A stretch of DNA of 64,000 bases from Lasiosphaeria ovina (Eukaryota > Ascomycota > Sordariomycetes > Sordariales > Lasiosphaeriaceae), in the NCBI GenBank assembly GCA_033439765.1, contig JAULSN010000003.1, positions 5,518,001-5,582,000 of the forward strand, in the 5' to 3' direction. The notes below the pieces were generated by a model that saw nothing but the letters and a program-made list of their open reading frames with translations, did no database searches and was not told where the DNA came from. Every line of letters begins with the position of its first letter. The stretch's first letter is position 1. Below, piece by piece: positions 28,626 through 63,950 of the stretch. The position numbers and the translations under genes are program-made.

Positions 28626-30845
28626 ATGAAGTCCATCATCGGCGCGGCCGCCCTCCTCCTGGGCCTCCTTGCCCCGAGCGCTGTCCTCGGCGCCCCTCCC
28701 GTGACACCAATCCAGAGGGATCTACTCACGCCCATCGAGGAGAGAGATGAGTCGCGTGTAGACACGCTCCGCCATCGCGCGTCGACGTGCAACACGCCCA
28801 GCAACCGCGCGTGCTGGTCTTCGGGTTTCAACATCAACACCGACTACGAGGTGTCGACGCCGACCACCGGCGTCACTCGTCAGGTACGTGCTTGCTTACT
28901 AAGAATCAAAATCAAACAAGCGCTGACCTCGGCCAGTACACACTCACCTTCACTGAGGTGACCAACTGGGTGGGCCCAGATGGCGTCGTCGAGCCTATTC
29001 GTATGCTTGTAAATGGTTAGTTTGATTTCCACCTGCCTGTCGTGATGTGATTGGAGCATACTAACTGTTTCCCCTTTAGGAAAAATTCTCGGTACGTCCC
29101 TGCACCGGCCTATTACCCCGTCAGCCCTGCCACCACGGTCTGCTCTCGGAGACTAACCAGCCAATTAGGACCTACCATCGTCGCCGATTGGGGTGACAAC
29201 ATTCAGGTTACTGTAATTAACAATCTGGTGACCAACGGGTAAGCAGCCTTTGTGCGAGGTATACATACGTCCTGGACAGGGTACCATACTAACAGCAACA
29301 GCACGTCGGTCCACTGGCACGGTCTCCATCAGCGGACCTCAGTACTTCATGACGGCGCCAACGGCGTCACTGAGTGCCCCATCCCGCCCAAGGGAGGGTC
29401 CAAGGTGTACAAGTTCCGGGCAACGCAGTACGGCACGTCGTGGTACCACAGCCATTTCTCGGCCCAGTACGCCAACGGTGTCGTGGGAACAATCTTGATC
29501 AACGGGCCGGCGTCGCTGCCCTACGACATCGACCTCGGCGTGTTCCCGCTGAGCGACTATTACTACCAGTCGGCCGACGACCTTGTCATCCTGACAAAGA
29601 CGCAGGGTGCGCCTCCAAGCAGCAACGTCCTCTTCAACGGCACCGCCAAGCACCCCGTCACCGGCGCCGGCAGCTACGCCAACGTGACGCTGACCCCCGG
29701 CAAGCGCCACCGCCTTCGCCTCATCAACACGTCGGCCGAAAACCACTTCCAGGTCGCGCTTGTTGGCCACAGCATGACTGTTATCGCAACGGACCTCGTG
29801 CCCGTCAACGCTTTCACCACTAACAGCCTGCTCCTGGGCGTGGGCCAGCGCTACGACGTCACCATTGACGCCTCGCAGACGCCTGGCAACTACTGGTTCA
29901 ACGTGACTTTTGGCGGCTCCGGCTTCTGTGGCACCTCGGCTAACCCGTTTCCCGCCGCCATCTTCCACTATGCTGGCGCACCCGGCGGCTTGCCCACGGC
30001 CAAGGGCACCGCGACCGACCATAATTGCCTTGACAACCTCAACTTCAAGCCCGTCGTCCAGCGCAATGTTGTCGTTAGCAACTTCACCAAGCGCCCTGCC
30101 AATACGCTGCCCGTCACCCTCGAGGGTCCCCCCGGCCAGCCCCTGTTCGTCTGGAAGGTCAACGGCAGCTCCATCAACGTCGACTGGAACAAGCCTGTCG
30201 CCGAATATGTCCTAACCGGCAACACGAACTATCCCACGAGCGAGAACTTGGTTATTCTTGATCAGGCTAATGTGGTATGTGTGCTCGCGAATGAATGCAT
30301 AATGTCCCCCGCTAACACATCGCAGTGGACCTACTGGTTGATCGAGAACGACCCAGATGGCGCCTTCAGTCTGCCGCATCCCTTCCATCTCCACGTAAGC
30401 CGTTACCCAGTCTTTCGGCTTCTTCCTTTCCCCCTACTGACAAAAACAGGGCCACGACTTTCTTGTTCTCGGCCGCTCGCCCGACGTGACCCCGGCCTCG
30501 CAGACGCGCTTCCATTTCAGCCAATCCGACGTGGCCAGCCTCAACGGCAGCAACCCCGTGCGCCGCGACGTGGCAATGCTGCCCACCGGCGGCTGGCTGC
30601 TGATCGCCTTCCAAACCAACAACCCGGGCGCCTGGCTCATGCACTGCCACATCGCCTGGCACGTGTCCGGCGGACTGTCGGTCGACTTTTTGGAGCGCCG
30701 CGCTGACTTTAAGGCCCAAACGTCGGCTGCCGATACCGCGGCCTTCAACTCTAACTGCAACAAGTGGCGCGCCTACTTCCCTGCACAGGACCCATTCCCC
30801 AAGATCGACTCGGGGCTGCGCAAGGCCAAGTACATGCGGGAGTGA
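28626..30845 (+). CDS. Secreted laccase (multicopper oxidase)
   Basis: Seven exons (28626-28883, 28937-29015, 29080-29091, 29169-29238, 29302-30274, 30326-30394, 30450-30845) give 618 aa. A signal peptide (about residues 1-22) is followed by a propeptide ending near LRHR and a mature N-terminus beginning CNTPSNRACW. All four copper motifs are present: HWHG, WYHSHF, HPFHLHGHDF and HCHIAWHVSGGL, with Leu at the axial type-1 position. The protein closely resembles Melanocarpus albomyces-type ascomycete laccases along its whole length, including the C-terminal DSGL sequence, where those enzymes are cleaved. Here only eight residues (RKAKYMRE) follow DSGL. It should oxidise phenolics with reduction of oxygen to water, outside the cell. 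Exon 3 is only 12 nt long but is needed to keep frame; both flanking introns have CTAAC branch sites. Confidence 0.96.
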
Positions 30846-32647: not shown

Positions 32648-33703
32648 TCATTTCAGTAGCCGTACCACCGCCTCGTGGCCGTTCGCAACCGCCCACGATA
32701 GCGGCGCCCAGCCCCTACTATCCTTCGCCTCGATACTGGCGCCCTTCTCGACTAGTAGCCGCACCACCGCCTCGTGGCCGTTCGCAGCCGCCTACGATAG
32801 CGGCGTCCGGCCCCTACTATCCTTCGCCTCGATACTGGCGCCCTTCTCGACTAGTAGCCGTACTACCGCCTCGTAGCCGTTCGTAACCGCCCATAATAGC
32901 GGCGTCCGGCCCCCACTATCCTTCGCCTCGATACTAGCGCCCTTCTCGACTAGTAGCCGTACCACCGCCTCGTAGCCGTTCGCGGCCGCTAATAATAACG
33001 GCGTCCGGTCGTAGCTACTACTATCCTTCGCCTCGATACTAGCGCCCTTCTCGACTAGCAGCCGCACTACCGCCTCGTAGCCGTTCGCGGCCGCTAATAA
33101 TAACGGCGTCCGGTCGTAGCTACTACTATCCTTCGCCTCGATACTAGCGCCCTTCTCGACTAGCAGCCGTACGACCGCCTCGTGGCCGTTCGTAGCCGCC
33201 CATAATAGCAGCGTCCGGCCCCCATTATCCTTCGCTTCAATATTAACGCCCTTCTCGACTAGTAGCCGTACCACCGCCTCGTGGCCGTTCTCAGCCGCCC
33301 ACGATAACGGCGTCCGGCCCCCACTATCCTTCGCCTCGATATTAGCGCCCTTCTCGACTAGTAGCTGTACCACCGCCAAGTGGCCGTTCGTAGCCGCCCA
33401 CGATAGCGGCGTCCGGCCCCTACTATCCTTCGCCTCGATACTAGCGCCCTTCTCGACTAGTAGCCGTACCACCGCCTCGTAGCCGTTCGCAGCCGCTAAG
33501 AATAGTAACGTCCGGCCCCTACTATCCTTCGCCTCGATACTAGCGCCCTTCTCGACTAGTAGCCGTACTACCGCCTCGTGGCCGTTCGTAGCCGCCCTCG
33601 ATAGCGGCGTCTGGTCGTAGTTATCCTTCGCCTCGATACTAGCGCCCTTCTCGACCAGCAGCCGTACCACCGCCTCGTGGCCGTTCGTAGCCGCCCACGA
33701 TAG
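32648..33703 (-). repeat. Tandem 99-bp ankyrin-coding repeats, with RIP-type substitutions
   Basis: Eleven head-to-tail units encode 33-residue ankyrin repeats of the form [20 protein letters not shown]; two units are 105 bp long (SSSYD insertion) and the last is partial. Copies are nearly identical. Many differences between copies are CpA to TpA or TpG to TpA on the plus strand (GTACCACC versus GTACTACC, CCCACGA versus CCTACGA, ACTGGCG versus ACTAGCG). The tenth unit carries an in-frame TAG at 32792-32794 in place of TGG. Confidence 0.9.
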
Positions 33704-35281
33704 CATATCCGCAAGTAATGTTGGCAGGTGCGCCTGTTCGTCAGCCTTGGGCTCCAAAGCCTTGGCGCGGCCAGCTAGGATATCCATCTCAGACGAATAA
33801 ATTGCCGGCCGCACCATGGGCCATAGCTGCCTCGGGCGCCATAGCTCTGTCGGAAGGCCCGATGGTGTTCGAGGACCCGACTGGGTTGGAGGACCCGACT
33901 GTGTCGTCTCTTCATAGTATGCGCTGTCTGTTGTATCGGGCACCTGTCGTCTTGGGGTTGTGACCACGCACTCTTCCTGTAGCGCGTCGGGTACGGGCTC
34001 CTTGAGCAGCAGATTTCCGGAGGTTGTAAAGCAAACAAAGTTGCAGCCCGGGATATTTTCTAGGTGGTCCCAGATAGGGACGGGGAGAGATATCATAACC
34101 ACGGTCGACAGGCCATGGTAGACGCCCTCGACATGAATTGTCTTTGTGTGTAAGGGAAACGCGGATAGCCATCTTCTGCAAGCAACGGCATCGTCGAGCC
34201 GGAGATCCTCGGTCAAGATGAGGCTTAGGATCACGCGTGGCGACACAGCTGGTTGCGAATTGACCGTGGGCTCTTCGTGGATCACAACCACCTCGCCTCC
34301 CTCGGTTGCGAGAGAAGATACTACGACGCTCGGCGGGCATCGGTCGTTTGATCGGATGTAGTGAACGGGCGTCCTCCTCCACTCAAACAACGAGCCGTCG
34401 GACGATATTTGCTCGGGCGGCATTTCCTTCAAGGCGACGAGCAGCTCGTTGTGCAGGCGAACGACAGAGAACTGGGTACGGCGCCATTTGCGCAGGACCC
34501 GGGTCAGGGCGTTTGTGAACGAGTGCGGCCCGGGAGGGGGGGCGAGAGACTCGAAGCCCGAGGCTGCTATCGTTTCGGAAAAGCCCTTGAGGGGCCTCGA
34601 GGCCGAGCCGGCCGCGCAGCAGCAGTCAAGCAGGAAAAGCGTATCAGATACCGCCTCGTGGAGAATATCCTCACAGCCGTTCCACTTTAGCTCGGCAAAA
34701 CGCTCATGCTTGACATTTCGAAGGCTTCGAGCGGTTAGTTAGTATACGCCGTATAATTAGAGGCTAACAACAGCCACACTCACTTGCGCCACACCACCTG
34801 CCTTCCCTCGTCAATCACACCATGGCCGGCATAGTACAGGATGAAGAGGTTGTGCTCGCTGTCATGGTCGTCGACCCAATTGGAGATGGTCTGGGTCAGC
34901 TTGCGAATGGGGCGCTCGACAGGAATTTGGCACTGCTGGACCTGGAACCCGTAATCGCGGTCCAGAACCTGGGCCAAGGCTTCGACCTCGCTGCCCACGC
35001 CGAGGTCTTCGTATTCCCACCGAAGCAGCAGCACGTTCACAGTTCGATTAGCAGCCTGAGAACAAAGTCAATATAGTTTCGAAGATGGGAATTAAGGGCA
35101 AACCCACGCTGTTCAGAGCGTCGACGATCTTGTCAAAGGCCCGGTGGTGGCATGCCGCAGCACTAATGTCATGCGTCGACGAGGGTGGGGTAATGGAGGC
35201 CTCAAACCCACGACTTCCGTCAGTCTCACCCGAGTCGCTCGACGACGAGCGAAGCCGCTTGAGAGAAGGCCGGCCGCTCAT
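32792..35281 (-). CDS. Caspase-like peptidase with C-terminal ankyrin repeats
   Basis: Exons 35108-35281, 34784-35055 and 32792-34724 encode 792 aa. A Ser-rich N-terminus precedes a caspase-fold (Peptidase_C14-like) domain at about residues 60-280: the core strand VNVLLLRWEYEDLG, the catalytic-His strand LFILYYAGHG (His136) and the catalytic-Cys strand TLFLLDCCCAAGS (Cys183-185). A linker of about 200 residues follows, with no P-loop or NACHT signature. Nine ankyrin repeats run from residue 490 to a TAG at 32792. Past that stop the frame continues for one more full and one partial repeat to a TGA at 32648-32650, so the protein may be prematurely truncated from about 840 aa. Fungal proteins joining an effector domain to near-identical repeats act in regulated cell death and allorecognition. 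Such a role here is inference. Confidence 0.82.
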
Positions 35282-41660: not shown

Positions 41661-44600
41661 TTATCCAACAATCGGGGACATGCCCGTCTTACTAAAAACA
41701 CTATTCCGCTCTTTTTTGAGCGACTTTTTTGGCGAGTCGGACCCGTTCTTGTCGAAGAAGCGCGTGCCGTTGTTCTTGGGGCTGACGGCCGTCATGGGGC
41801 TGACGAGGTCCTCCTCCTCGCGGATGACGGGGCTGCCCGGGAGGGGCGCGGCGGGGTCCGTCTCGTCGTCGCCGCTGTGGTTGCTGCAGGCGCTGCTGCC
41901 GTCGGTCAGGCTGTCGGCCGAGCTCGTAGCGCCGCGTGAGCTTGTCTCGCGCACCATCAGTGCCACTACGCTCAGCATGTCCGACTCCTCCTCGGCAATG
42001 CCCTTGAAGGCCGGCAGATGCGGCAGCTGCGGCGGCTCGCGGGGGATCGGGCTCGCGCTGCTCCGGACGCCAAAGTCGATGCCGTTGTTGGAGCTGTTGG
42101 GCACGCCGGCCCGGTTGCTGTTGGCCGCGATGGTGTTGAGGCTGGCGCTCATGCCGGCGCTGATGTTGGCGTTGATGATCTTGGGCGATAGGGGGTTGAC
42201 CATCTCGGCCACCATGGCCGACGCGATACCGATGGCGACAGGCGTCGTCGAGGGGATCGACGACATGGGCGCCGACCCGGTCCGCCGCGATCCGGGCCCG
42301 TCGGATCGGCCGACGGTGCTGGCGAACCGGCGGATGCGGCTTCCGATGGCGGCCGGGGACACCGACACGTTTATGCTCGGTTTTCTGCGGTGGATCTGCG
42401 CCTGGGCTCTCGCATCTGCCTTCTCCCTCTCTCCCTCCTTCTCCCTTTCCTTGCCCTTTACAGCCTGGGTCGTCTGGGCCTTGATCTTGGAGGCAATCAG
42501 CTCGAACTGCTTGAGCATGGTCGGGTTGTCCACAATCTCCTCCATTGTGAGCTTCAGGCTCCCGCCGTCGATGCCCGCGAGGTTGATCCTGGGCAGCTCG
42601 CGGTTGAGTTGGGCCGTCAGCTGGGCGGCGGGAATGAGACTCCCCCAGAGGTCGAAGAACGCCGCGTTGTGGACCTGGGCTTCCGGCACGCCCAAGGTTC
42701 GAGGGTTGAGGATTGGCGTCCATGTCTGCGAGATGAGGGACTGGATGGCCTTGGCTTGGTCCGCCGAGAGGAAGTTGATGGCTTCCTCTCCCGAGATCAT
42801 GCCGGGCGATGCCAGCGCCGCATTTAAAGCGATGGGAATTCTCTTCTGCATGGTCCGATACTGGAAGCCGTTTGGAATGATGGGCTGCATGATGCTGACG
42901 CTAGTAAGCAGACTGACGGTCGTGTGCAGGTTGCGAAGCGTGTGCTCGGCAAACGGCTCGGGGATACGATCCGCGCAGAACGTAATCGAGAGCTCTACTC
43001 GGCCCGCGCCGCGCACAATCGACCTGACGAACAAGTCGGGGACGTCCTGGGCCTTGGACTCGACGACGGTAAACTTGCACGAAGCGGCGCCGAGATGAAA
43101 CGGCTTGTGCTCGTCGGGGTTGACAGCCGTGTCTTCGTATTGGTGCTGCACGAGCGTGCTGAACCGAGTCCAGTACGGCCACGGCGTGCACTTCTCCACG
43201 ATGCTGAGCGTTCCGAGATTCTCGTACGGGATGCCCGATATGCGCTGGGCGTGTATATGCTGGAGCAGGGTCAACGGGGTGAGTGCGTGCTCTTGGGGGA
43301 ACTGCACGCGGACGGGGATCGCGTTGACAGTCGGCCCCATGACCCCGGCAACCGGCTGGCCGCCCAACAACCTGACGTGACGGCCGTCGATGAGCTCGCC
43401 AAAGACGACATCGGGCGAGGCAGACAGAGCCGCGAGAACCATTGCCCAGGCGCCTTTCAGGACCGTCTCGAACGAGATGCCGAGGCTAGACAGCGAGCCA
43501 ATGTTCATCGAGTGTCGGATTGTCTTGATGTTTGTCGACAGCTGGTACGGGTGAGTATGTGCGACAACCTGCGTCATGGCGGCGCCTTCAAGCAGCGCCC
43601 GCCAGTGCTCTTCTGCCCCTTGCGCATTTACCATTTGCGACGACCGTATAAAGTCGCAGTAGGATGGCCTTCGGCGCGGGTTCTGAGACCCGTCGTACAA
43701 CCGCTTGAGGTCCTTGACCAAGAGCGCGATCGAGAGGTCGTCGTATTGGGCCTTGGTCAGCCGCATGACCAGGATCGACTGCTTGGTGCCGTCGAGGAAC
43801 ATGAACTTGGTCATGGGCGAGCAAAATGCGACTGGGGACAGCTGGTCTTTCCGGATCGTCTTTTCCATTACGCTCGTGAGGCGCCACGACGGGCAGGTAT
43901 CGCGGCGGAACTCGACGTCGGGGGACGCGAGGACGGCCTGGTAGACTCGGCGATTGTACGGGACAAAAACAGTGCGCAGGATCGGGTGGATTGCAACAAG
44001 GCTAACGCACGCGTCCTCGAGCTTTTTCGCATCTACAGCTCCAGAAAAGTTGAAGACCAGGTAGTTAATGTTGGCACGCCCCCGAAGCATGCCAGTCTCA
44101 ATATATCTGATCTGCACGGAAGACGCCTCTGCAACGTCCTTGATCGCGCTGCCGTCGACTCCAATCTTGGGAGCGATGACCTTCTCGATGAACGTGACGG
44201 CAGCATTATTCGGGGGGACCGGCGGTGGTGTGACGGGAATTGGGGACGAGTCCTGCACCACTTGTGGGGACTCGATAGTCATCATCGCCCTGCAGAGCTC
44301 GGTTAGGGTCGCGTTGCGCAGCACGTCGGCGATGGACACGGTGATTCCGTCTTGGCGGCAGGCGGCAATCAGCTGGGCCGCGAGGATCTCGTCGCCGCCA
44401 GCACCAAAAAAGGTGTCGAGCGCCCCGATCTTGGCTTCTTCGACGCCCAGAACTCTGGCCCAGACGGCTCTCATGCGCTCTTCGTTGTGCGTCAGAGGCA
44501 AGGGCTTGAGGGCGTTGAACTTGGCCTCGTTTGTGTTCGGCACCGCGGACAGGGCCAGGAGCTGCTCTTTCGACATGCCGTTTATCATCTTCTGCAGGCG

Positions 44601-47600
44601 CCGCCGGTTGACCTTGAGAGACGGCGTGATGGGGAGATGCTTGACGGGGATGAAAATTGACGGAATCATTGACGGCGCGACAGCGTTCTTCAGCCCCACG
44701 TCGACAAGCTGCTTCGCCATAGCAACCTGCTCTTTTGTCGCAGGACTCAACGATGCGAGGTTTTCTTCGCCGTCGAAAAGACTGTCGCCGAGTTCGATAA
44801 AGGCAGCAAGCACGGCATCAGACTTGGTCCCCCGAAACGTCATCGCGTCGACAATTACGTCGACTCCCTGGCCGAGACAGCGCCGGAGATACTGCTCGAT
44901 CTCGGTCGTATTCACCGGCTTGCCGTCGATCTCGGTATCTTCTCGTTTGCTGGAAATGAACTCCATCAGCCCGCCCTCGGTATACCTCGCACGGTGGCCC
45001 GTCTTGAAATATCGAGCCTTGCGGCCGGGCGTGGCCGCCAGTGGTGTCATCGGCGGCATCGTCGACTCTCTGTTCGGGTAAGCACATCCCAGAGTTGGGC
45101 CTTCCACCACGAGCTCACCAACTGCGCCGGTAGGTACACGTTTCTTGTGGTCCTCCGGGTTGACAATCAGCAGATTTCCAGAGAAGGGCCGACCAATGCT
45201 TCGCAAGTGATACGTGCCCAGAGCCTCGAGGAAGGATATGCCCAGAGGACAGACATCCTGCGGCCCGTAGGCCAAAATGACATTGACTTTGCCGTGCCAG
45301 GGAGCATATGTGTCATCGTCAAGACTTCGAGTCCGGAAGCAAACAACTTTGAGAGACGGCAAATTGGACGGCTCCAGCTTCCTCGACAGGAGGGGAGTCA
45401 TGTACGTCCAGTTAACCTGCATGCGGTTCACGGCGGCAGCAAAGTCATGCACCTTCTCCGTAGGCAACGGGATGCAGACACACCCACCACAAACAAGAGT
45501 GGTGAATATCTCGGTGATACATATGTCGACGTTGAACGAGGAGAGTTGCATGACACGACTGAGGGAGGTAATGCGGGCTGCGGGTCCTTGCCCCGACAGC
45601 GCCGTCGATAGTGCCGCGTGGCTAAAAGACATGCCCCGAGCCTCGCTAGACGACGTCGGAACAAAAAGGATGCAGGCAGGGTCCGCTGGCGCCGCCATCG
45701 AGGTCAAAGACCCCTGACTGCGCGGAAGCCCGTTCATCAACTCGTCGGTCAACGTTACGACCTTCTCAAAGAGATTTCCGAGGACCGGGGCCGCGTGTTC
45801 CGAGGCAATGGCGACTCTCGAATTGAGGCGCTCGAAGATGGGTTGGATCATGCTGAGCTCCAGAGCGTCGATGGGGACGAAGGCCGCGCCGGATCTAACA
45901 ACGTATGAGCATTAGGGAAAGCATAGCAAGAACGAGCGACTTACTTGAGAACGGCCAGCATGGCCACCGGGGCAAGCCGGGACTTCTCCATCACGACTGG
46001 AACCACGGAATGCGGCCCAACGCCAGCGTCCACGAGATGGTGCGCCAGCTTCGTCGCCTCTTCCTCGAGCTGCTCGTAGCTCAGATTACCGTCCCAGGAG
46101 CAAATAGCCTGTGCAGTCGGCTGCAGGGAAGCCTGGTTTGAGATGAGCTCGTGAATCAGATTCTGGGCCTGGCTCTCGGCGGTTGCCGGCGTCTGGGAGT
46201 CCCAGGCCAAAATCTGGGCATAGTCCCGGTCGCTGCAGAGATCAACCAACCCGATAGACGTGTTGTGCATGGTGAGAACCGCACGGATGGCTCGTCCAAA
46301 TGTATTTGCCACGTTGAGCGACTGCTCTGGGGCCATTACTCGTTGTCCCATATCCACGACCAAATTGCCGCCAGAGAAGCGTGTGTTGACAACGACATCC
46401 ACGTCAAATGTCTGCTGCAGCGACACAGGCTTCAGCTCGAAGCTCGATCTCGTGGTGAACTTGCTGTTCAGCCCCGCTGGCTCTTCCGTGAACGTCAAGC
46501 ACGAGTTGAACAGACGGTCGCCACCCTTCATACCCATTGCGTGCTGGAGCTCGGCCATGGTGAAATGCTGGTGAGGCAGGCTGGTAGCCATCTGGTCCTC
46601 GACCAGCTGGAGTGCGAGGTTCAACGGGGTATACGACGAGAGCTCGTAGTTGCACGGAACCGTGTTTGCAAACGAGCCAACGGCGTGGCGCATCCCCTTG
46701 ACCGAGTCATCGCGTCCCAGTGTCTGGTAGCCAAAGCACACTGTATTTGATCCGGCAAAGCAGCGCAACACAAGGCCCCACGCAAGGCGGAGGACTGCTC
46801 CGACCGTGATCTTGTGAGCCCGAGTGAATGCAGTCAGCTCCGTGGCAGCAATCTCGAGATCGAGGTTGGCGTTGGTAAACTTATGCTCCTCTGGCGCCAT
46901 GCTGAGCCGGGGAAATAAACAGGGCGAAACTTTGGCAAGTCTCTCGCGCCAGTAGCCAAGACTCGACTCTTGACGAACTCCCTTCAGGAAATCGAGATAG
47001 GAAGGATAGGAAAACTGGGCGGGATCCGAGAGCGCGCGCTCAGTGGCGTAGGCTCGTCTCAGGTCGTGGAGGAGTATGTGTATGCTTATAGACTGCAACT
47101 TGTTAGCATCAGACATGGACGAGAGTAGGCAAACTTACGTCGCAGAGCGCAGTGCTAATATCCAACTTCACAAAGGTCCTGGACGGAGCCTTGCAGACGG
47201 TGAGCCTGTGAAGCGGCTTTTTGTCTGTCGGCCTCAATTTGACGAGGTTGCTGAGTTCATACACGGGGTCCTCTGACGGCGCTGTGTCGATAAAAAGCAT
47301 TTCGGGGGAAGTGCGATGGAGGATGATCTTATCCCAGAGGCCGGTCTCGCTGATGCTCTCGGTGAAGACGGTTCTCAGCGCCGCATGTCGCATCGTGACT
47401 TGCTCCCATGCGGTGCAGATCTTCGAGTGGTCAATGGAGCCGCCATTGGGAGCAGCAAACTCGTAGATGGCGTGCAAATAGCACGCGTCGGGCCGCTGCG
47501 CCTGGCTGATCAATATGCTTTGCTGCACTGCGGTCACTGGGTATATGGTTTCGAGCTCTCGGACGCAAGTCAGATTCAGAGCCGCGAGCCGCTCCTTCCT

Positions 47601-50084
47601 GTGGAACTTTGCTAGGCTTTCGTAGGTGACGTCGAGGTGCGGAACATCGGAGAGCGTAATCTCATGTTGGTGATATCTTAGCCGCCCAATAGCCTCGAGC
47701 AGCAGGTGCTCGTAGTTCTGTATCCACTGCGAGATGCGACTTTGGTCTTTGGAGAAGCGGCTGTACAAGAACTTGACCTTGGCTGCTCCCTGGTTGATCA
47801 TCGCGCTGACCTCAAAGAGTGCGATGCGGCCGACATTCGGTCCGATATCCGACATCGGCGAGGCGAGCGTCCGGCCCGTGATTGGAAACTGCTCCATAAC
47901 CCCATTGTCGCGCTCCAGATGTTGTAAAGAGCCCGCGTAGCTGAAAATGATCTCGAAGGGCCAGTCATGTGAAAGGTCTGCTTTTTCGTAATCGTAGAAT
48001 CTAGAAGCAAAATATTGGGCACCCCTCGTTGGTATCGACCGCCGTATATCCTTGAGTCGCCGGAGGACGGCGATGAGGTCATCCGAAGTGTCGACCTTTT
48101 GGCTTATCGGACATAACGACGTAAACCACCCGACAGTCTCTGAGATGTCAATCTCGGTATTCCAAGGCTCTCTCCCGTGCTCCTGGTTCCACACGACCGG
48201 GACTGATCGGTCGTGAAATGTTTGGGCGAAAGATAGCATGAGGGCGGCGAGATAAATATCCACACAATCGGTCCTGAAGACAAGGTTGCATGACGTCTGT
48301 AATATTGAGGTGAGCTCGGGGCTCAGCGAAAAGCTAACCTCGAGAGCATCGCCATAGGTGTTTGGGGTCCCTTGCAGGCCCCAGTAATCATAGTCGCCCG
48401 GTTGGACGGGAAATGGCAGGAGATCTTGCGGCTCCCGCCCTTGCGCGTCGGCTTTCTGGACGTCTACCCAGTTGTGGAAAGGCATGGACTTCTGTGACAG
48501 CAAGTTCCCGTTCTCCAACATTTCGTCGAGGTCGTGGATGATGATGCGCCATGAGGGAAGGTCGACGGCGAGATGGTGTGCCGCAAGATAGACCATCTGC
48601 TGGCCGTCGTGGGTGGTGAGATAGTCGACAGCAAACACGGGGCCGTTCTCAATGTCGATCGAGTATTGCGTCTTTTCGAGGATATCTTCCAGTTCCCGGT
48701 CAGACCTTATCGCGCTGTGACAGAGGGAATAAGAGCCCGCCACCTCTGGCAGTATCCTCTGGGACCATCCAGCCATACCGCGACTGAAGCGCGACCGTAG
48801 CATGGGATGGTGGCCGACGACAGCTTCTATCGCGGCGGTGATGCTCTCAAACGTGAAGTGCTTCTTGAAGCGGAGGAGCATGCTCTGGTTAAAGCGATAG
48901 CTCCCCTCGCCACCCGTCCTGAGGTCGAGATCACCCCCCATGGCCGTCTTGAAGTAGAGATGCTGCATCGGGGACAGGTCGAAGGAGTCCAACGTCTCCT
49001 CGTCCCATTTTTGCGACATGGCACCTCGCGATGCCGCAAGCGCGGCGAGCTCGGATAATGTAGTCGAGCCGAGCACCTCGGCGGCGCTCAAGTAGATGGA
49101 TTCGTGCTTGCAACGCGCTACCAATTCGATGGCCGTCATCTCGTCCCCGCCGAGTTGGCAGAATGTGAAGTTTACGCCGATTTGGCCCGGCGGGACATCC
49201 AAGACCTTGCTTGCCAGTATCTGCAGCGACTTCTCCATGGCCGTCTGCGGGAGCTCGAGCATCTCGTGGCTACCCAGGCCCGTGGCTTGTTGATAGATGT
49301 CCTCGTTGATGTTCTGGGCCCACGTGCGAAGACGGCGGATGTCGACCTCGCCCGACTCAGTGAGGGGCATCACGTCCAGCACGATCCAGATATCCGGCAC
49401 GGCTTCGGACGGAAGGGCGGCCTCGGCGGTCTGCCTGAGGACGGCGACCTGGGTCCCGGCGAAGAGAGACTGAGACTGGGGGATGAGGTTGATGGCGGGA
49501 GGGCTGTCTTCGGCGGACGGCAGGGCCCCCGAGAGGGTGAGGAGGGCGACCAGCTTGCCCTCGAGCAGGCCGGCCTTTGGGCGCACGGTGGCTATCCGGT
49601 CGACGGCCGTTTGCGTGCCGAGCGCCTGCTCGATATCTGTTCTCTGCACGATCTGTGAGCCGGAGCTGGACTGGCTCGAGTTGCGCGAATGGCTCCCCTT
49701 GGCTTCGGATCGGGCGGAGAGGCGGCTGGCTTTGTGAATCTCGAGGGGCGCAATCATGACGGGCTCGAGCGTCTCTGCGTACTGTGACTGACGGGCACAG
49801 GGCGAGATGCAGGTCTGGAGCTCGGCGATGGTCGAGCAGCGGAGAATGTCGCGTATCTTGACGTCAATACCAACGTCCATGCAGGCCTTTCTGAGCACGG
49901 CAGCGCTCTTCTCGTCGCCTCCCAATTCCCTGAACGACTCGTGCACGCGTATGTTTCCCTGGTCGACGTCGAGTACCTGGGCCATGGCGACTAGGAACCT
50001 GCTATCGATCGATTCATCCTCCAGAAGCAGCCACGATGTCGAAGCGTCGATGCGCGGGGCGGCGAACCTCGGGGCGGCGTCCAT
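41661..50084 (-). CDS. NRPS-like megaprotein with degenerate carrier, adenylation and condensation sites
   Basis: Exons 47139-50084, 45945-47092 and 41661-45894 encode 2,775 aa with no internal stop. Domains in order are: carrier-like T1 (about 28-95), adenylation C-terminal subdomain (about 160-260), T2 (285-350), epimerization-like E (360-790), condensation C1 (about 850-1290), adenylation A (1300-1800), T3 (1840-1900), condensation C2 (about 1940-2375), T4 (2410-2490) and a disordered Ser-rich tail to 2775. T1, T2 and T3 read GGDE (58, 315 and 1867 where the pantetheinylated Ser should be); T4 reads LWGSLI. The A3 loop is FVPTSSSEARG instead of SGTTG-type, A7 is FKTGHR instead of RTGD, and the first A10 Lys is Glu246. 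C1 reads STALCDS and C2 TKAQYDD in place of HHxxxDG. The E domain keeps HHLAVDLPSW. As a classical peptide synthetase it should be inactive. A structural, binding or regulatory role is inference. Confidence 0.88.
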
Positions 50085-53000: not shown

Positions 53001-53252
53001 GCCGGCGCTCCAGCATGTGGATTCCGGTACCTAGCCTAATGCGGGGTGAGCCGAACGGCGGACTGCCCCGGAACCGAGACCTCAACCCCACCTCGTTCCA
53101 CAGGCCCCATCACATTCTGCGCGCCGAGCAAAGCGCTTCGGGCCTTGCCCGACCCTGACAAAACCCAACACACAGACCTCCACGACTCCCGTAACCGATT
53201 CCTCAATTCTCCACCCGATAACCATCCGCAGCAGTCCTAGTTACCATCAATT
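50085..53252. other. Intergenic, upstream of the NRPS-like gene
   Basis: About 3.2 kb with no convincing gene; frames such as the minus strand at 51491-52078 look like chance. It should contain the NRPS-like promoter. An unusually long upstream region is compatible with complex regulation, but no site can be named. Confidence 0.45.
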
Positions 53253-53326
53253 GGTCGGATGGTGTAGTTGGTTATCACGTCAGTCTAACACACTGAAGGT
53301 CTCCGGTTCAAGCCCGGGTCTGATCA
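53253..53326 (+). tRNA. tRNA-Val (anticodon AAC)
   Basis: The cloverleaf folds completely. The acceptor GGTCGGA pairs with TCTGATC (two G-U pairs), discriminator A. The D arm is GTG...CAC, the anticodon stem TCAGT/ACTGA encloses the loop CTAACAC (anticodon AAC), the variable loop is AGGTC, and the T arm is TCCGG-TTCAAGC-CCGGG. There is no intron. A run of five T (53339-53343) downstream fits RNA polymerase III termination. Confidence 0.95.
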
Positions 53327-53699
53327 AATGAGCTTCTCTTTTTGGGCGACGCCCATATCCCTTTTTGCCACCTCACCACTTTGTTCTCCACTCTGTCGCT
53401 TTTTCTCTCGCCATCGTTATTTACCTGGGTTAGCAGCCTGCAAATATCTTGCTGAGAAATGACACATTCTGGTTTCTTGTTAACAGCTAATTTTGTTCAG
53501 AACAAATCTTAACCTAGGATTAGAAGGGAAACCTTCAACTTCACATGGCGGTAAAAGACCAGTTGCTTGAGGTTGGACATTTCCCTTGTTCGCTTGTATC
53601 TCATACTATAATACAAATCACATAGAAAAGAGATGATTAAATCTTCTCCCCATTTCAACCCCCCCCCGGGGGGGAATCTTTGAGTCACAAACTTAATAT
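53327..53699. other. Intergenic with a C9G7 palindrome
   Basis: No gene. A run of nine C followed by seven G at 53659-53674 forms a perfect GC hairpin without a loop; it could also be a site of sequencing or assembly error. Confidence 0.6.
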
Positions 53700-57899: not shown

Positions 57900-60800
57900 T
57901 TACCAGAAGCCAGTGCCGCTCGGCTTCGGCTGAGCATCCTTGTTGAAGTACGAGCTGATGTCATTGTCCACGCCGCAGTTGTGGCACTTATGCACCACCT
58001 TTGGTGCACCGCCACTGCTGGCAGTATCATGAGGGGCAGCGCCGGAGCTGGCGCCGGCCGATGTTGCCCATGCCCCCGTCGCCGCAGCCAGTGCTGGGGC
58101 CGTGCCCTGTCCACTGGATCGCGCCGTCTGATGTCTTTCAGAGAAACCTTGAGCCTTGTGCTTCGGAGGAACAGGAGGCGCACTGTCCTTTTCGCTAGTG
58201 GGTGGTGAGCGCGTTACCGGGGCTGTCGTATCCTGGGACGTTCCAGGGGCGGGCGTCGAGCGAGGGGCAGTAGCAGTGTATGCGGCCGGCATCACTTCGG
58301 GGCTCATCTGACTGGAAGACTGCTCACGAGAATGAATCACGGCATCATTTCGCGGTCCCATGTGGGACGTGTCGAGCAAAGGCTCCTCTGGAGTGCTCTC
58401 AGTGCGGGGCGATGTATACGGAATGGCAGCAATGTGTCCGAATCCATGATCGGTGCCAGACTTTGTGCCGGTTGCCTGGGTGTTGGACTCACCCTGTCTT
58501 TGCGCGTATGTGTCCTCGCTGCGGCGGCGTTGGCTTGGCTGGACCTTGACGCCAGAAGGGGTTCCAGAGGGAAGCACGTTGTAGGGACCGGTAGAGCGTC
58601 CGGTCTTGTCCTGGACTGGCCCAGAATCTGAAGTAGCCCTATCCTTGTAGGCTGCGGATCCAAGAGCCGACGAGTCAGTCTTCACGCCAGACGATGTCCC
58701 AGAGGCCAAGACCTTGTAGTTGCCAGGTTCGTTTGTCGCGCCGTCCCGGGTCTCCAACGCAGCCGTGTTGCTCGAATCGGTCTTCACGCCGGATGGTGTG
58801 CCTGTGGCAAGCGTGTTGTACGAGCCGGATTCGTTGCTAGCGGTTCCGGACTGTGACTGGCCGGTGGAGCGGAATGGGGTTGAAGATTGCTGCTCGTGTT
58901 CTCCCTTGGCCTTGGGCGACCCCTCTCTGCGCGAGTGCATGTAGGCGCCGGCCGCTGCTGCGCCCGCTCCAGCCGCCAGGAGAGGTTTGGCCCGAGAACT
59001 TTCGTTGTCTTGGGACTCCTGAGAGTTCTCTGTTTGACGGGTTGCAGCCGGAGCATGAGCCGGGCTCCCAGTTGAGTATGTGTCCGGCGATGGGAGAGAT
59101 CCTGTGTGCCGAACGTGCCTCTCAGCGATGGGAACAGCGATGGGGTCTGCTGCACCGACACTACTTCTCATCTTGGCGTCATAGGGCTTCGTAATGGACC
59201 CGTCTTCTTTACCAAGAGCGGCTTGTTGGCGTCTGTAGTTCTCTTCCATGCCATCATGCTTGTCCCTGGAAGGAACAGGCACTGGGTCTACAGCGCCAGT
59301 GCTGCTTTTCATCCTGGCGTCATAGGGCATTGTGATCGAGTTGTCCTCATCGCCTATGGCAGCCTGCTGGCGGCGGTAATTCTCGTACATGTCGTTGCCC
59401 CTTGGTGACGACCCGGACTGTGGGCTTTTGTTAGACTCCTTGTCGTCTTTGTTGTGTTTGCGCAGCACGCTTGCGCCAGTGGCACCTGCAGCTGCTCCGG
59501 CCGCGATCTTTTCCTTCTCGTGTCTAGACCGGGGCTCAACAGCGTCATTCTGGGGCTCGGGTGCCAAAGTTTCGTCGCTATCCTTGTCATCCTTGTGGCG
59601 ATGGAAAATCCCGAGGATTTTGTGGTGCCTCTTCTCACCCTGGGCCTGGGGTGGGCTGTCCTCGCGGCTCTTCTTCTTCTTCACAGGAGACGACTCCTTA
59701 GGTTCCTTCTCCTGCTTCTGACGATGAGGGAGCACACCAGCGATGGCACCTGGCGGGCTGTGCTTGTCCTTTGAAGCAGCAGCGTCCTGGCTGACACCGC
59801 GGTTCGCGGTGGTGCTGTCTTCATCATTTCTGTGTCTGTGTTTGTGCTTGTCTGCCAGTTCGGATGCAGCAACTCCAGTTCCAGCACCAGCAGCACCCGC
59901 CACGAGAAGAGCCTCCTTAGTGTGCGAATCAGATCTCTCAGATGTCAATGTCTTGTCCGTGTTCTCTTTGTCGGTTAGAGGGAATGCTCGAGGGGCAGTC
60001 GAGTCATTGGTGACAGGGGCACCTGACAGTGCAGCACCAGAAGTGAGGGTGCCAACTTGTGGAGGAGAAGATGCCTTGGGGCTAGAGATGTCCGCGCCGG
60101 AGTCATTCACCAGAACATCATTTTTGGGAGACGTCGATTGATGCTCGGGGACGCCTGGCAATGGTGCAGCAAACGCGCGGCCAGAAGGGTGTTCAGCATG
60201 CCGCATGCTCTCCTCATCTTGGCTTCCGTGACCGATGACACTGTTATGCACACCGGTCTGGGGGTAGTCAGCCGCGTTGCCAGCAACGTGGGACGTCTCA
60301 GGCTCTGTTGGACGTGCTGGCAAGCGGTGGTGCTGGTCATGGTCGTCTCCCGGGCTACCATGGCCCGTGACCGTATTATAGATTCCTCCGCCCGCGGCCT
60401 TCGGCAAGCTGCCCCAGTAAGGGGGAGTGTTGCTGCCAGGAGCACGGGGCTGAGCTCCCGACTCGACGTTGTCGTCTGCAGCGGTACTGGTGCGCTGCTG
60501 GCCAATGGCGGCGTTATCGGCAGTGAACGCGCTACCGTTTTCGCGCGAAGTGTCCTGGGAAAATGCGCGCGGTGTGGGCTTTTGGGGGCCTGTCTCGAAA
60601 GGGGCAGGGGCCTTCTCTCGTGAAAAGAGGGCGCCGACGGTCTGAGGAGCGTAGGCGGCACCTTTGAGAGACTCATGAGTCGCGTCGTGGGAAATGGCTG
60701 GCTGCGCAGCCGTCGAGTCATGGCTGTCGAGAGGGTTTTTCTCCCGAGTGTAGAGACCGCCTCCGACGGCTTCCGAGTAGTCGCTGCGCCGTTGGGACTC

Positions 60801-60980
60801 GTCGCCATTGAAGGGGTCGACGCGGTCGCGCTCAGTTAGGCCCACGCCAGAGTCGGAGTACCCGTGGGTGCGCGGGTCTTGCGGCTTGTGCAGCTTGTTA
60901 CGCTGGTCTTTGTGCATGTTGACTTCGTCGGGGGTTGCAACGCCTGGGGTAATTGGATATTGGCCAGGGAGGTCGTCCAT
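57900..60980 (-). CDS. Large intrinsically disordered repeat protein
   Basis: This single frame of 1,026 aa is hydrophilic and low-complexity nearly throughout. Features include two GHGS(P/Q)-type repeats (YNTVTGHGSP and HNSVIGHGSQ), two NYRRQQAA-x-G-x-ED-x-SIT-x-PYDA repeats (about residues 525-615) and three YN-x-L-x-SGTPSGVK repeats (about 730-830). Three Ala/Gly segments sit within charged sequence: EALLVAGAAGAGTGVAAS, KIAAGAAAGATGAS and KPLLAAGAGAAAAGAY. The C-terminal 35 residues look ordered and carry HKCHNCGVDND. Composition recalls fungal stress-associated or scaffold-type proteins, but I cannot name a family. The ATG at 60980 opens the frame and is preceded by a normal leader. Confidence 0.78.
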   Translation of the reverse strand: MDDLPGQYPITPGVATPDEVNMHKDQRNKLHKPQDPRTHGYSDSGVGLTERDRVDPFNGDESQRRSDYSEAVGGGLYTREKNPLDSHDSTAAQPAISHDATHESLKGAAYAPQTVGALFSREKAPAPFETGPQKPTPRAFSQDTSRENGSAFTADNAAIGQQRTSTAADDNVESGAQPRAPGSNTPPYWGSLPKAAGGGIYNTVTGHGSPGDDHDQHHRLPARPTEPETSHVAGNAADYPQTGVHNSVIGHGSQDEESMRHAEHPSGRAFAAPLPGVPEHQSTSPKNDVLVNDSGADISSPKASSPPQVGTLTSGAALSGAPVTNDSTAPRAFPLTDKENTDKTLTSERSDSHTKEALLVAGAAGAGTGVAASELADKHKHRHRNDEDSTTANRGVSQDAAASKDKHSPPGAIAGVLPHRQKQEKEPKESSPVKKKKSREDSPPQAQGEKRHHKILGIFHRHKDDKDSDETLAPEPQNDAVEPRSRHEKEKIAAGAAAGATGASVLRKHNKDDKESNKSPQSGSSPRGNDMYENYRRQQAAIGDEDNSITMPYDARMKSSTGAVDPVPVPSRDKHDGMEENYRRQQAALGKEDGSITKPYDAKMRSSVGAADPIAVPIAERHVRHTGSLPSPDTYSTGSPAHAPAATRQTENSQESQDNESSRAKPLLAAGAGAAAAGAYMHSRREGSPKAKGEHEQQSSTPFRSTGQSQSGTASNESGSYNTLATGTPSGVKTDSSNTAALETRDGATNEPGNYKVLASGTSSGVKTDSSALGSAAYKDRATSDSGPVQDKTGRSTGPYNVLPSGTPSGVKVQPSQRRRSEDTYAQRQGESNTQATGTKSGTDHGFGHIAAIPYTSPRTESTPEEPLLDTSHMGPRNDAVIHSREQSSSQMSPEVMPAAYTATAPRSTPAPGTSQDTTAPVTRSPPTSEKDSAPPVPPKHKAQGFSERHQTARSSGQGTAPALAAATGAWATSAGASSGAAPHDTASSGGAPKVVHKCHNCGVDNDISSYFNKDAQPKPSGTGFW

Positions 60981-62111: not shown

Positions 62112-63950
62112 CTACCAAAGCGAATACCGTTCATCTTCTCCGAAGTCGTAATCCGTGTCATAGTCCTCTCCAACATCGGTGATTCCGTCTTCAGCTTCGC
62201 TGTCGGGTTCAACATCCCCATTCATCCAAATGACTCTGCGGTACTTGTGCTCCAGAACCTCGACATGTTCTTCATCGCTGCTGTAGTCCCACTCGTCGAG
62301 GTCATCGGCGTCGCTGTCTTGAACAACTCTGGATATCTTGTCAGCCCTGTTCAAAATCCTTGCCAAAATCCTCTTGGCTCTTGGACCGAGCCGGCTGTGG
62401 TCGGCGCCGTATTTGACAAGCAGCGTGACGAGTTTCCGGTTCCAGCTCCTGTCTTGTTTTCTGCACATGTCGAATGCGTTGTCGGTCTCTTCAGACCGCG
62501 GATATGTCTGAGGGGTCAAGTTGAAAAGAATTTGGCTCAGCAAGAACCAGGCCTTTGGCCTAGGCGTAGTATCACTCTGTCGGACAAAGTAGGGCACATT
62601 TGGGTCTGCTCCTGCACTGAGCATGGCTTCAGCAGCAACCAAGTCTCCCTCCCAGCACGCCCGGCCCAGAGCGGTGACGCCCTTAAAGTCGCGGGCTGAG
62701 GCCTTGGCGCCATTGGCCATGAGCTCGTGGATGACTTGTTTTTGATATTTCCGAAATGGCTTGGCGCTGTCAGAAATTCCGGGACCGATGCAGTCGAACA
62801 ATAGCAAGTCCGCCCGTGTTGTCTTCGAGAATGTTGGCCATTCAGTCCCAGTGCAACGTTCTCCGAGATCATCCCATCGTTCGTCGTACTGCTCCGACAT
62901 CAGGTCTTCAAGACCAACCTCACTCAAATGCGCCATCTCAGGGGAGACTATGGTAGAGCTCGTGGGCGTGCTGATCTGAATAGACTCGAGCGACGGAGTG
63001 AGAGTTCCGTCATCGGGCGGTTGGCTCGTCTCGTTTCCCAGGCTAGCGCCTGCGCGAATGAGTGCCAGCGCGACTTCAAAGTTCCCTGTCGAGCATGCCA
63101 AAGCAAGTACTCTACGCCCATGTTGGCTCTGCCAATTGATGTCGGCGCCGAGACTAAGGAGCATGTGGACGGCTGGGAGGCTTTTAGCGGACCCTTCGTA
63201 GGCCGCCATGCAGAGCGGCGTGAGATCCGAATTCCACAGCGGATCCCCAGCAGGTACATGATCTGGATTAACTTGGCGATCCGTGACAAGATACTCGACG
63301 ATGTCAGCTTGGCCGAATATCGCTGCCGTTTGTAGCGCACTTTGTCTCATGTTGACATCGTAATGTCGACCATTCTGAATATTCTTGACACCGGTGACCT
63401 GGTCTATATTGGCTCCCCTGTCGATCAGAGCCTTCGCGATGTCTTTAAAGCCGTGGCGGATGGCCACGAACAGGGGCCATCGAACTTCCAAAACGGGCCT
63501 GTAGCCTCGCACAAACTCCAACCTGTCGTCGTCGACGAACTCTTCAATCTTGGAAGCCTGTCGGCGGTACCATACACCGTTTACGTCGGCTCCTTTCTCG
63601 AGGAGAAGCGTGACTATTTCTTTGTGGCCTCCATCGATGGCGGCATGTATGGGCAGCCAGTCATCATAGAAGCGGCCCTTTCGTCGGCTGCTTACGAATC
63701 GAGTGTTTACGTCGGCTCCGGACTCCAGTGCACGCTTCACAAGTTCCAGGTCTCCGTCTCGGGCACCCCGATAGAGAGCATGCCGTGGGAAATTTGTAAT
63801 GAGTTCTTTCTCCACGATGTGGTGGACGTTTCGACAAGTATGTCCCAGAGATGCGAGATCCTCCACCCTGTCGAACTCCCCGGCGATAGCCAAGACAGAC
63901 TCGACAGGAAGATCCGCGAATCCACTCATCCTCGGTGGCGAGGGAGCCAT
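62112..63950 (-). CDS. F-box protein with ankyrin repeats
   Basis: This 612-aa single-exon protein has an N-terminal F-box (about residues 9-46: SGFADLPVESVLAIAGEF, then SLGHTCRNVHHI). Divergent ankyrin repeats follow: LYRGARDGDLELVKRALESG, PIHAAIDGGHKEIVTLLLEKG, LFVAIRHGFKDIAKALIDRG, QTAAIFGQADIVEYLV, CMAAYEGSAKSLPAVHMLLS, ALACSTGNFEVALALIRAG and, after a Ser/Thr-rich insert, GRACWEGDLVAAEAMLSAG. The tail is strongly acidic. F-box proteins usually bind Skp1 in SCF ubiquitin ligases with the repeats choosing the target; the target is unknown. Its ankyrin repeats are highly diverged, in contrast to the near-identical ones at 32.7-33.7 kb. Confidence 0.88.
   Translation of the reverse strand: MAPSPPRMSGFADLPVESVLAIAGEFDRVEDLASLGHTCRNVHHIVEKELITNFPRHALYRGARDGDLELVKRALESGADVNTRFVSSRRKGRFYDDWLPIHAAIDGGHKEIVTLLLEKGADVNGVWYRRQASKIEEFVDDDRLEFVRGYRPVLEVRWPLFVAIRHGFKDIAKALIDRGANIDQVTGVKNIQNGRHYDVNMRQSALQTAAIFGQADIVEYLVTDRQVNPDHVPAGDPLWNSDLTPLCMAAYEGSAKSLPAVHMLLSLGADINWQSQHGRRVLALACSTGNFEVALALIRAGASLGNETSQPPDDGTLTPSLESIQISTPTSSTIVSPEMAHLSEVGLEDLMSEQYDERWDDLGERCTGTEWPTFSKTTRADLLLFDCIGPGISDSAKPFRKYQKQVIHELMANGAKASARDFKGVTALGRACWEGDLVAAEAMLSAGADPNVPYFVRQSDTTPRPKAWFLLSQILFNLTPQTYPRSEETDNAFDMCRKQDRSWNRKLVTLLVKYGADHSRLGPRAKRILARILNRADKISRVVQDSDADDLDEWDYSSDEEHVEVLEHKYRRVIWMNGDVEPDSEAEDGITDVGEDYDTDYDFGEDERYSLW

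Follow-up and report, generated by a model that had tools for sequence, protein, structure and literature searches.

A conserved fungal protein, probably derived from a nonribosomal peptide synthetase, that lacks carrier serines and most catalytic residues

Can a gene with the architecture of a nonribosomal peptide synthetase (NRPS), whose carrier domains have lost the serine that would be pantetheinylated, still encode a synthetase, and if not, is it decaying or kept for something else? The question is raised by a gene in a 64,000-nt stretch of Lasiosphaeria ovina DNA (contig JAULSN010000003.1, 5,518,001-5,582,000; hereafter the window, whose positions are used as coordinates throughout), which encodes a protein of 2,775 amino acids (aa), the window protein. 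We consider it quite likely, on the basis of sequence comparison, that this pseudo-NRPS is a pseudoenzyme descended from a live synthetase, that its thiotemplate chemistry was lost early in the Sordariomycetes and that the protein has been kept whole for another job. The comparisons give strong evidence for each of two components of this reading, namely that the protein would be unable to work as a synthetase and that it appears to be retained for some role.

Gene structure and carrier serines

The gene contains two short GT-AG introns (47138-47093 and 45944-45895), and its spliced 2,775-aa product has no stop. A sequence-only reading of this locus had described a frame open over 2,775 codons; the length is right, but it takes splicing to give an uninterrupted frame, and even the longest single reading frames fall short of it. 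From the N to the C terminus, the product consists of a carrier-like domain T1, the remnant of an adenylation (A) domain, T2, an epimerization-type (E) domain, a condensation-type domain C1, an A domain, T3, a terminal condensation-type domain C2, T4 and a Ser-rich tail (Table 1).

The codon at the former Ser position is GAG in T1, T2 and T3. It had been remarked that GAG in T1 lies more than one step from any Ser codon, which is true and nothing special to T1, since all three are GAG and no Glu codon can be turned into a Ser codon by fewer than two changes. Pfam carrier matches listed for the L. ovina genome number 62, three of them in the pseudo-NRPS gene, and 58 of the 59 others were read by eye (the genomic match C2:190651 was left out). 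The Ser is present in 57 of these 58, the sole exception being a terminal carrier, LGGDI, in a different large NRPS; chance therefore does not explain why a single gene has three carriers without it.

A family of relatives without most catalytic residues

Protein searches with phmmer were run with the window protein and then with a Pseudomassariella protein, and the best 120 matches of each were used. The first search returned a 98% identical protein of 2,775 aa named Lasiosphaeria miniovina, and its best 120 matches include full-length relatives from Podospora, Neurospora, Chaetomium, Coniochaeta, Pyricularia, Gaeumannomyces, Colletotrichum, Verticillium, Diaporthe, Cytospora, Lomentospora, Hypoxylon and others, to which the second search adds many further Xylaria, Hypoxylon, Apiospora and related names. 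No members from Hypocreales were among the best 120 matches of either search, which is not evidence of their absence there. We aligned 192 of the 197 returned proteins (those below 4,000 aa) with the window protein, giving 193 rows that represent 90%-identity clusters rather than species and of which several are partial. A FastTree tree separates 86 rows, holding the named Xylariales, from 107 rows, holding the window protein; this split agrees with the named groups, as expected of vertical descent. Two family members (P0032 and P0033) come from Coniochaeta sp. 2T2.1, and in each the E-domain motif has HR in place of HH. Separately, all seven Monosporascus members (P0191-P0197) have Arg in place of the E-domain catalytic His and no aligned T2, which may reflect a gene-model error or a further loss.

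Ser is absent at T1, T2 and T3 in 141 of the 164 rows in which all three columns are filled, the other 23 having at least one Ser, mostly at T2 and in the 86-row clade. At T1, it occurs in just two family rows, both with a degenerate T1. The possibility named with the sequence-only reading, that the window copy alone is mutated among GGDS orthologues, is therefore contradicted, and a lone decayed copy is ruled out by the full-length relatives with Ser loss across many genera.

Knowledge of which NRPS residues are catalytic comes from bacterial domains. The catalytic His of C2 (second His of HHxxxDG) is absent from 192 of 192 rows, with Lys in the window protein, and that of C1 from 172 of 184, being kept in 12, with Thr in the window protein. 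Across the family the A3 loop is mostly degenerate, and the A7 Asp survives in only four of 192 rows; in the window protein, TGD of A7 has become TGH (45005-44994), and the A3 loop (45671-45624) is degenerate. Of the features of a working NRPS, the window protein lacks the carrier Ser, the A3 loop together with the A7 Asp, and the catalytic His of the condensation domains.

Live-looking relatives and origin

A third protein search returned live-looking relatives of 5.2 to 5.8 thousand aa, here called the P0198 type, among them proteins named Lasiodiplodia theobromae, Macrophomina phaseolina, Madurella fahalii and Leptodontidium sp. In eight of these, the stretch A remnant-T2-E-C1-A-T3-C2-T4 runs collinear with the window protein; within this set, P0201 is close to P0200 and the best A match of P0274 lies in another module. 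Identity to the window protein is 40 to 60% over T3 (56% for P0198, whose T3 reads GGDS) and 38 to 43% over C2. The live-looking proteins differ in having GGDS at T2 and T3 (8/8), the catalytic His of C1 and C2 (8/8) and normal-looking A motifs; their E domains show EG in 8/8 and a complete HHxxxD in 6/8, and P0198 has about 2,900 extra N-terminal residues.

At T4, seven of the eight read VWGS and one reads VWGN, so the WGS motif was inherited and no Ser was lost there within the family. An earlier claim that all four carriers had lost the Ser consequently holds for T1 to T3, which read GGDE, and fails for T4, which is ruled out as a fourth lost carrier. Unlike T1 to T3, T4 has no Pfam match; its AlphaFold model has a predicted local distance difference test (pLDDT) score of 87, and the best Foldseek matches are peptidyl and acyl carriers (top 4mrt_C, probability 1.00), with weak significance (top E value 0.08, none at or below 0.001).

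In a tree of terminal condensation domains, the family (26 representatives) forms one clade with a Shimodaira-Hasegawa-like approximate likelihood ratio test (SH-aLRT) support of 100, and together with seven WGS-type live-looking proteins it makes up a 33-row group with support of 92, the order inside which the tree does not settle. Proteins of the Pes1/NRPS1 type (P0270, named Pes1 of Usnea florida, and the L. ovina gene at C28:1060-1083 kb) have homologous E and C domains and a related terminal C-T, but they are 6.8 to 7.9 thousand aa long, carry GGDS carriers upstream and fall outside this group. The L. ovina Pes1-like NRPS was at one point considered the direct parent, a candidate superseded by the P0198 type, which is closer over C2 and T3. 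The terminal carrier of this Pes1-type NRPS (C28:1061027-1061209, inside L009) itself reads LGGDI without Ser, and some live-looking relatives have LGGDI, LGGDF or LGGDL there, so that lack of the Ser in the terminal carrier may be typical of the Pes1 type.

Membership of the NRPS superfamily by descent is indicated by homologous C, A and T domains (Pfam) arranged as in an NRPS, by collinearity, folds and the tree. The architecture, the collinearity, the loss of active sites and the agreement of the tree with the named groups together argue for a pseudoenzyme by descent. The ancestor would have been a live, Pes1-related NRPS of about 5,500 aa, shortened to the last part of its line (A remnant-T-E-C-A-T-C-T) plus the carrier-like T1.

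Constraint on the protein

Over residues 1 to 2510, the window protein is 71.7 and 71.9% identical to the family members of Corynascus novoguineensis and Podospora australis (74 to 79% over single domains), which are 76.4% identical to each other. The live-looking sibling shows 55.8 to 62.0% identity (six comparisons among the L. ovina Pes1-type synthetase, P0208 of Corynascus similis and P0239 of P. australis), a contrast that is weakened by the use of another Corynascus species and an unspliced L. ovina gene, and by a live-gene orthology that rests on the tree. Between the window protein and that of L. miniovina there are 56 core substitutions, 16 of them in the slower half of columns versus 28 expected by halves.

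We further compared 190 family rows with the eight live-looking proteins over the collinear part. Both sets conserve 229 sites. At 84 other sites, all live-looking proteins agree but the family has lost the residue and varies. At 17 sites, the family is fixed to a different residue; 10 of these are in the A domain, with six at residues 1551 to 1583 adjoining the A5 motif. The view that the changes are tolerated or selected in an intact protein, and are not decay, is thus upheld at the level of protein comparison: the protein is constrained, and the Ser loss is common to most orthologues. Most of its catalytic residues are lost while its fold is constrained, as is characteristic of a pseudoenzyme.

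Short motifs are conserved also in the tail, which we infer to be disordered. Among 184 tails, each of at least 60 aa, S[ML]TxGSS occurs in 85 (0.1 in shuffled tails) and a VSPLS-like motif in 83 (2.5 in shuffled tails). The former is found in both main clades (44/105 and 41/79) and is hence old; none of the 117 proteins that the live-relative search added contains it.

Interpretation and alternative explanations

The sequence-based evidence suggests that the pseudo-NRPS is probably a ligand-binding or scaffold protein. Its E, C and A folds would form a platform with one or more re-tuned, noncatalytic pockets for a small molecule or for partner proteins, among which the A-domain pocket is the best candidate; in one large clade, an acidic T2 may keep T2 docked on E; and the Ser-rich tail with its conserved motifs may be where signaling proteins act. 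A more specific version is put forward tentatively, as a possibility that we rate below even: a single early-Sordariomycete switch to a noncatalytic sensor or scaffold, in which the A pocket was re-tuned to a new ligand (the ten newly fixed residues, six of them by A5) and the tail reports the bound state.

Several observations weigh against the main reading. As many as 118 of 191 rows retain the A10 Lys; T1 is badly degenerate in several lineages; and the strict S[ML]TxGSS motif is absent from 99 of the 184 tails. The remaining such observations concern the E domain and the Ser-bearing members, and they belong to the two main rivals, namely an E domain that is still active, in trans, and a T2 that is still modified in the clade of the Xylariales.

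According to the first of these, the epimerization-type domain is still an enzyme that works in trans, either on a free small molecule or on a carrier belonging to a different synthetase, with the rest of the protein as its scaffold. The first His and the Asp of its HHxxxD are each found in 192 of 192 rows, the Arg of HGR likewise in 192 of 192 and the Trp of TVGWFT in 187 of 190. The second, catalytic His is kept in 180 of 192 rows, which is beyond what a purely structural role needs, and the top Foldseek matches of the domain are the tyrocidine and gramicidin PCP-E didomains. In bacterial E domains, the first Glu of EGHGRE is catalytic. That residue is lost in 192 of 192 rows (Gln in 177), as it is in the window protein, where HHxxxD is present, whereas all eight live-looking relatives have EG; the following residue is Glu in 179 of 192 rows and might substitute for it. 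The catalytic His, moreover, is Arg or Gln in 12 rows. We regard a live E domain as unlikely on this balance.

The second rival holds that product formation persists in some lineages, where T2 of the Xylariales clade would be the only working carrier, and that the window copy has degraded further. The 23 rows with Ser at T2 all belong to the clade that holds the named Xylariales, and T3 keeps the Ser in P0046, P0050 and P0106, so that members with Ser at T2 or T3 might still be pantetheinylated. P0106 has Ser at both and higher Pfam scores (AMP-binding, 137.5 bits), but it is already without the A3 loop, the A7 Asp and the C2 catalytic His, and in the rows with T2 Ser the usual Ile or Leu after it is missing. 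A product-forming lineage is improbable in our estimation.

A third possibility, extending the fixed negative charge suggested with the sequence-only reading, is that the Glu residues are selected phosphopantetheine mimics whose charge holds each carrier holo-like and docked. In the 107-row clade, the former Ser column changes 29 times at T1, 25 times at T3 and five times at T2, the median column changing 12 times. Counts above the median indicate relaxed evolution at T1 and T3, so that Glu is no general replacement; a phosphomimic in all carriers is ruled out for these two, and the expectation that orthologues share GGDE does not hold generally, the column varying widely at both. T2 is held acidic in the 107-row clade only, with Glu or Asp in 104 of 105 filled rows and four of the five changes from acid to acid, while in the 86-row clade it reads E, S, P, D, Q, A, K, T and others. 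At T2 of this one large clade, a charge effect is plausible, and an acidic residue may possibly keep the T2-E pair docked. Acids are favored at helix N termini regardless, and a capping preference would be the simpler reason. Selected mimicry in each carrier accordingly seems to us a poor prospect.

Finally, the idea that a dispensable synthetase is slowly decaying and has merely kept its frame so far, which would fit the lost active sites, the degenerate T1 of several lineages and the 84 lost and variable sites, is very hard to reconcile with full-length proteins in many genera, an identity above that of the live-looking sibling, the 229 shared conserved sites and the conserved tail motifs.

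Known systems and genomic neighborhood

Partial likenesses to the pseudoenzyme proposed here exist in known systems. In the X domains of glycopeptide NRPSs (PMC8949500), a C fold that has lost HHxxxDG serves as a platform recruiting other enzymes; the X domain is one domain in a live bacterial line, whereas the window protein is a whole stand-alone dead line. Ferrichrome synthetases such as Schizosaccharomyces pombe sib1 keep an A domain with lost core motifs in a conserved NRPS (PMC2644324), although the rest of that enzyme is live, unlike the window protein. Among the matches listed from openly licensed literature, we found no description of this family.

A Pfam scan of 20 neighboring reading frames (introns ignored, so genes may be missed) revealed no clear biosynthetic tailoring set around the gene, and a biosynthetic cluster is rejected on this basis. 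Matches were to a multicopper oxidase, two ankyrin proteins, PEBP, Ysc84, C2H2 and a Fringe-like protein, and 13 of the 20 frames had none. An account of Neurospora crassa NRPS clusters (PMC9239088) lists one with core gene NCU04531 and laccase NCU04528, and we guess by elimination that NCU04531 is the Neurospora orthologue. The multicopper oxidase in the window lies about 11 kb from the pseudo-NRPS gene, and the L. ovina genome has 25 matches to that family. The gene div-19 of the NCU04531 cluster is presumably a GCP-type spindle-pole gene, and none of that type is found on the window's contig. Because the oxidase family is common in the genome and the contig has no GCP-type gene, synteny with the Neurospora cluster is weak. 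A match scoring equal to the window oxidase (133.9 bits, open frame of 487 aa) lies at C10:36838-37278 and is perhaps a recent duplicate.

Table 1. Features of the pseudo-NRPS gene and of its surroundings (window positions; residues of the 2,775-aa product)
Feature	Position	Strand	Details	Basis
Whole pseudo-NRPS gene	41661..50084	minus	exons 50084-47139, 47092-45945, 45894-41661; 2,775 aa	spliced translation
T1 carrier-like domain	49800..50012	minus	residues 25-95; GGDE at 49922-49911 (residues 55-58)	Pfam PP-binding
A-domain C-terminal-part remnant	49260..49664	minus	residues 141-275	blastp match to A-domain C-terminal part of live-looking synthetases
T2 carrier-like domain	49020..49259	minus	residues 276-355; GGDE at 49151-49140 (residues 312-315)	Pfam PP-binding; PCP-E fold
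Epimerization-type domain	47595..49019	minus	residues 356-830; HHLAVD 48578-48561, NQEHGRE 48188-48168	Pfam Condensation
Condensation-type domain C1	46184..47567	minus	residues 840-1285, contains intron 47138-47093; STALCD at 47156-47139 replaces SHxxxD	Pfam
Adenylation-type domain	44484..46183	minus	residues 1286-1835, contains intron 45944-45895	Pfam
T3 carrier-like domain	44274..44483	minus	residues 1836-1905; GGDE at 44399-44388 (residues 1864-1867)	Pfam PP-binding
Terminal condensation-type domain C2	42804..44138	minus	residues 1951-2395; TKAQYDD at 43757-43737 replaces SHxxxDG	Pfam; tree
T4 terminal carrier-fold domain	42459..42803	minus	residues 2396-2510; DLWGSL	AlphaFold and Foldseek
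Ser-rich C-terminal tail	41664..42458	minus	residues 2511-2775; motifs IRRFAST from 2552, DSLTDGSS from 2692, LVSPMTA from 2728	motif counts versus shuffled tails
Multicopper oxidase reading frame	29252-30706			
Large ankyrin-repeat reading frame	32792-34432			
Large ankyrin-repeat reading frame	62112-63950			
tRNA-Val	53252-53327		anticodon AAC	
Low-complexity reading frame	57900-60980		1,026 aa; no Pfam match	repeated segments by eye

Implications

Many members of this family are named NRPS in databases, and genome mining would count them as biosynthetic genes. The comparisons point to a widespread family that would be unable to make a peptide by the NRPS route and is nevertheless better kept than its live-looking sibling, which raises the question of what a dead synthetase of 2,775 aa does in Neurospora, Podospora and their relatives. 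The sensor or scaffold version, if true, would make it a stand-alone pseudo-megasynthase, a kind that we did not find described in the literature searched. More generally, the family would illustrate how nature puts the folds of carrier, C, E and A domains to new use after their chemistry is lost.

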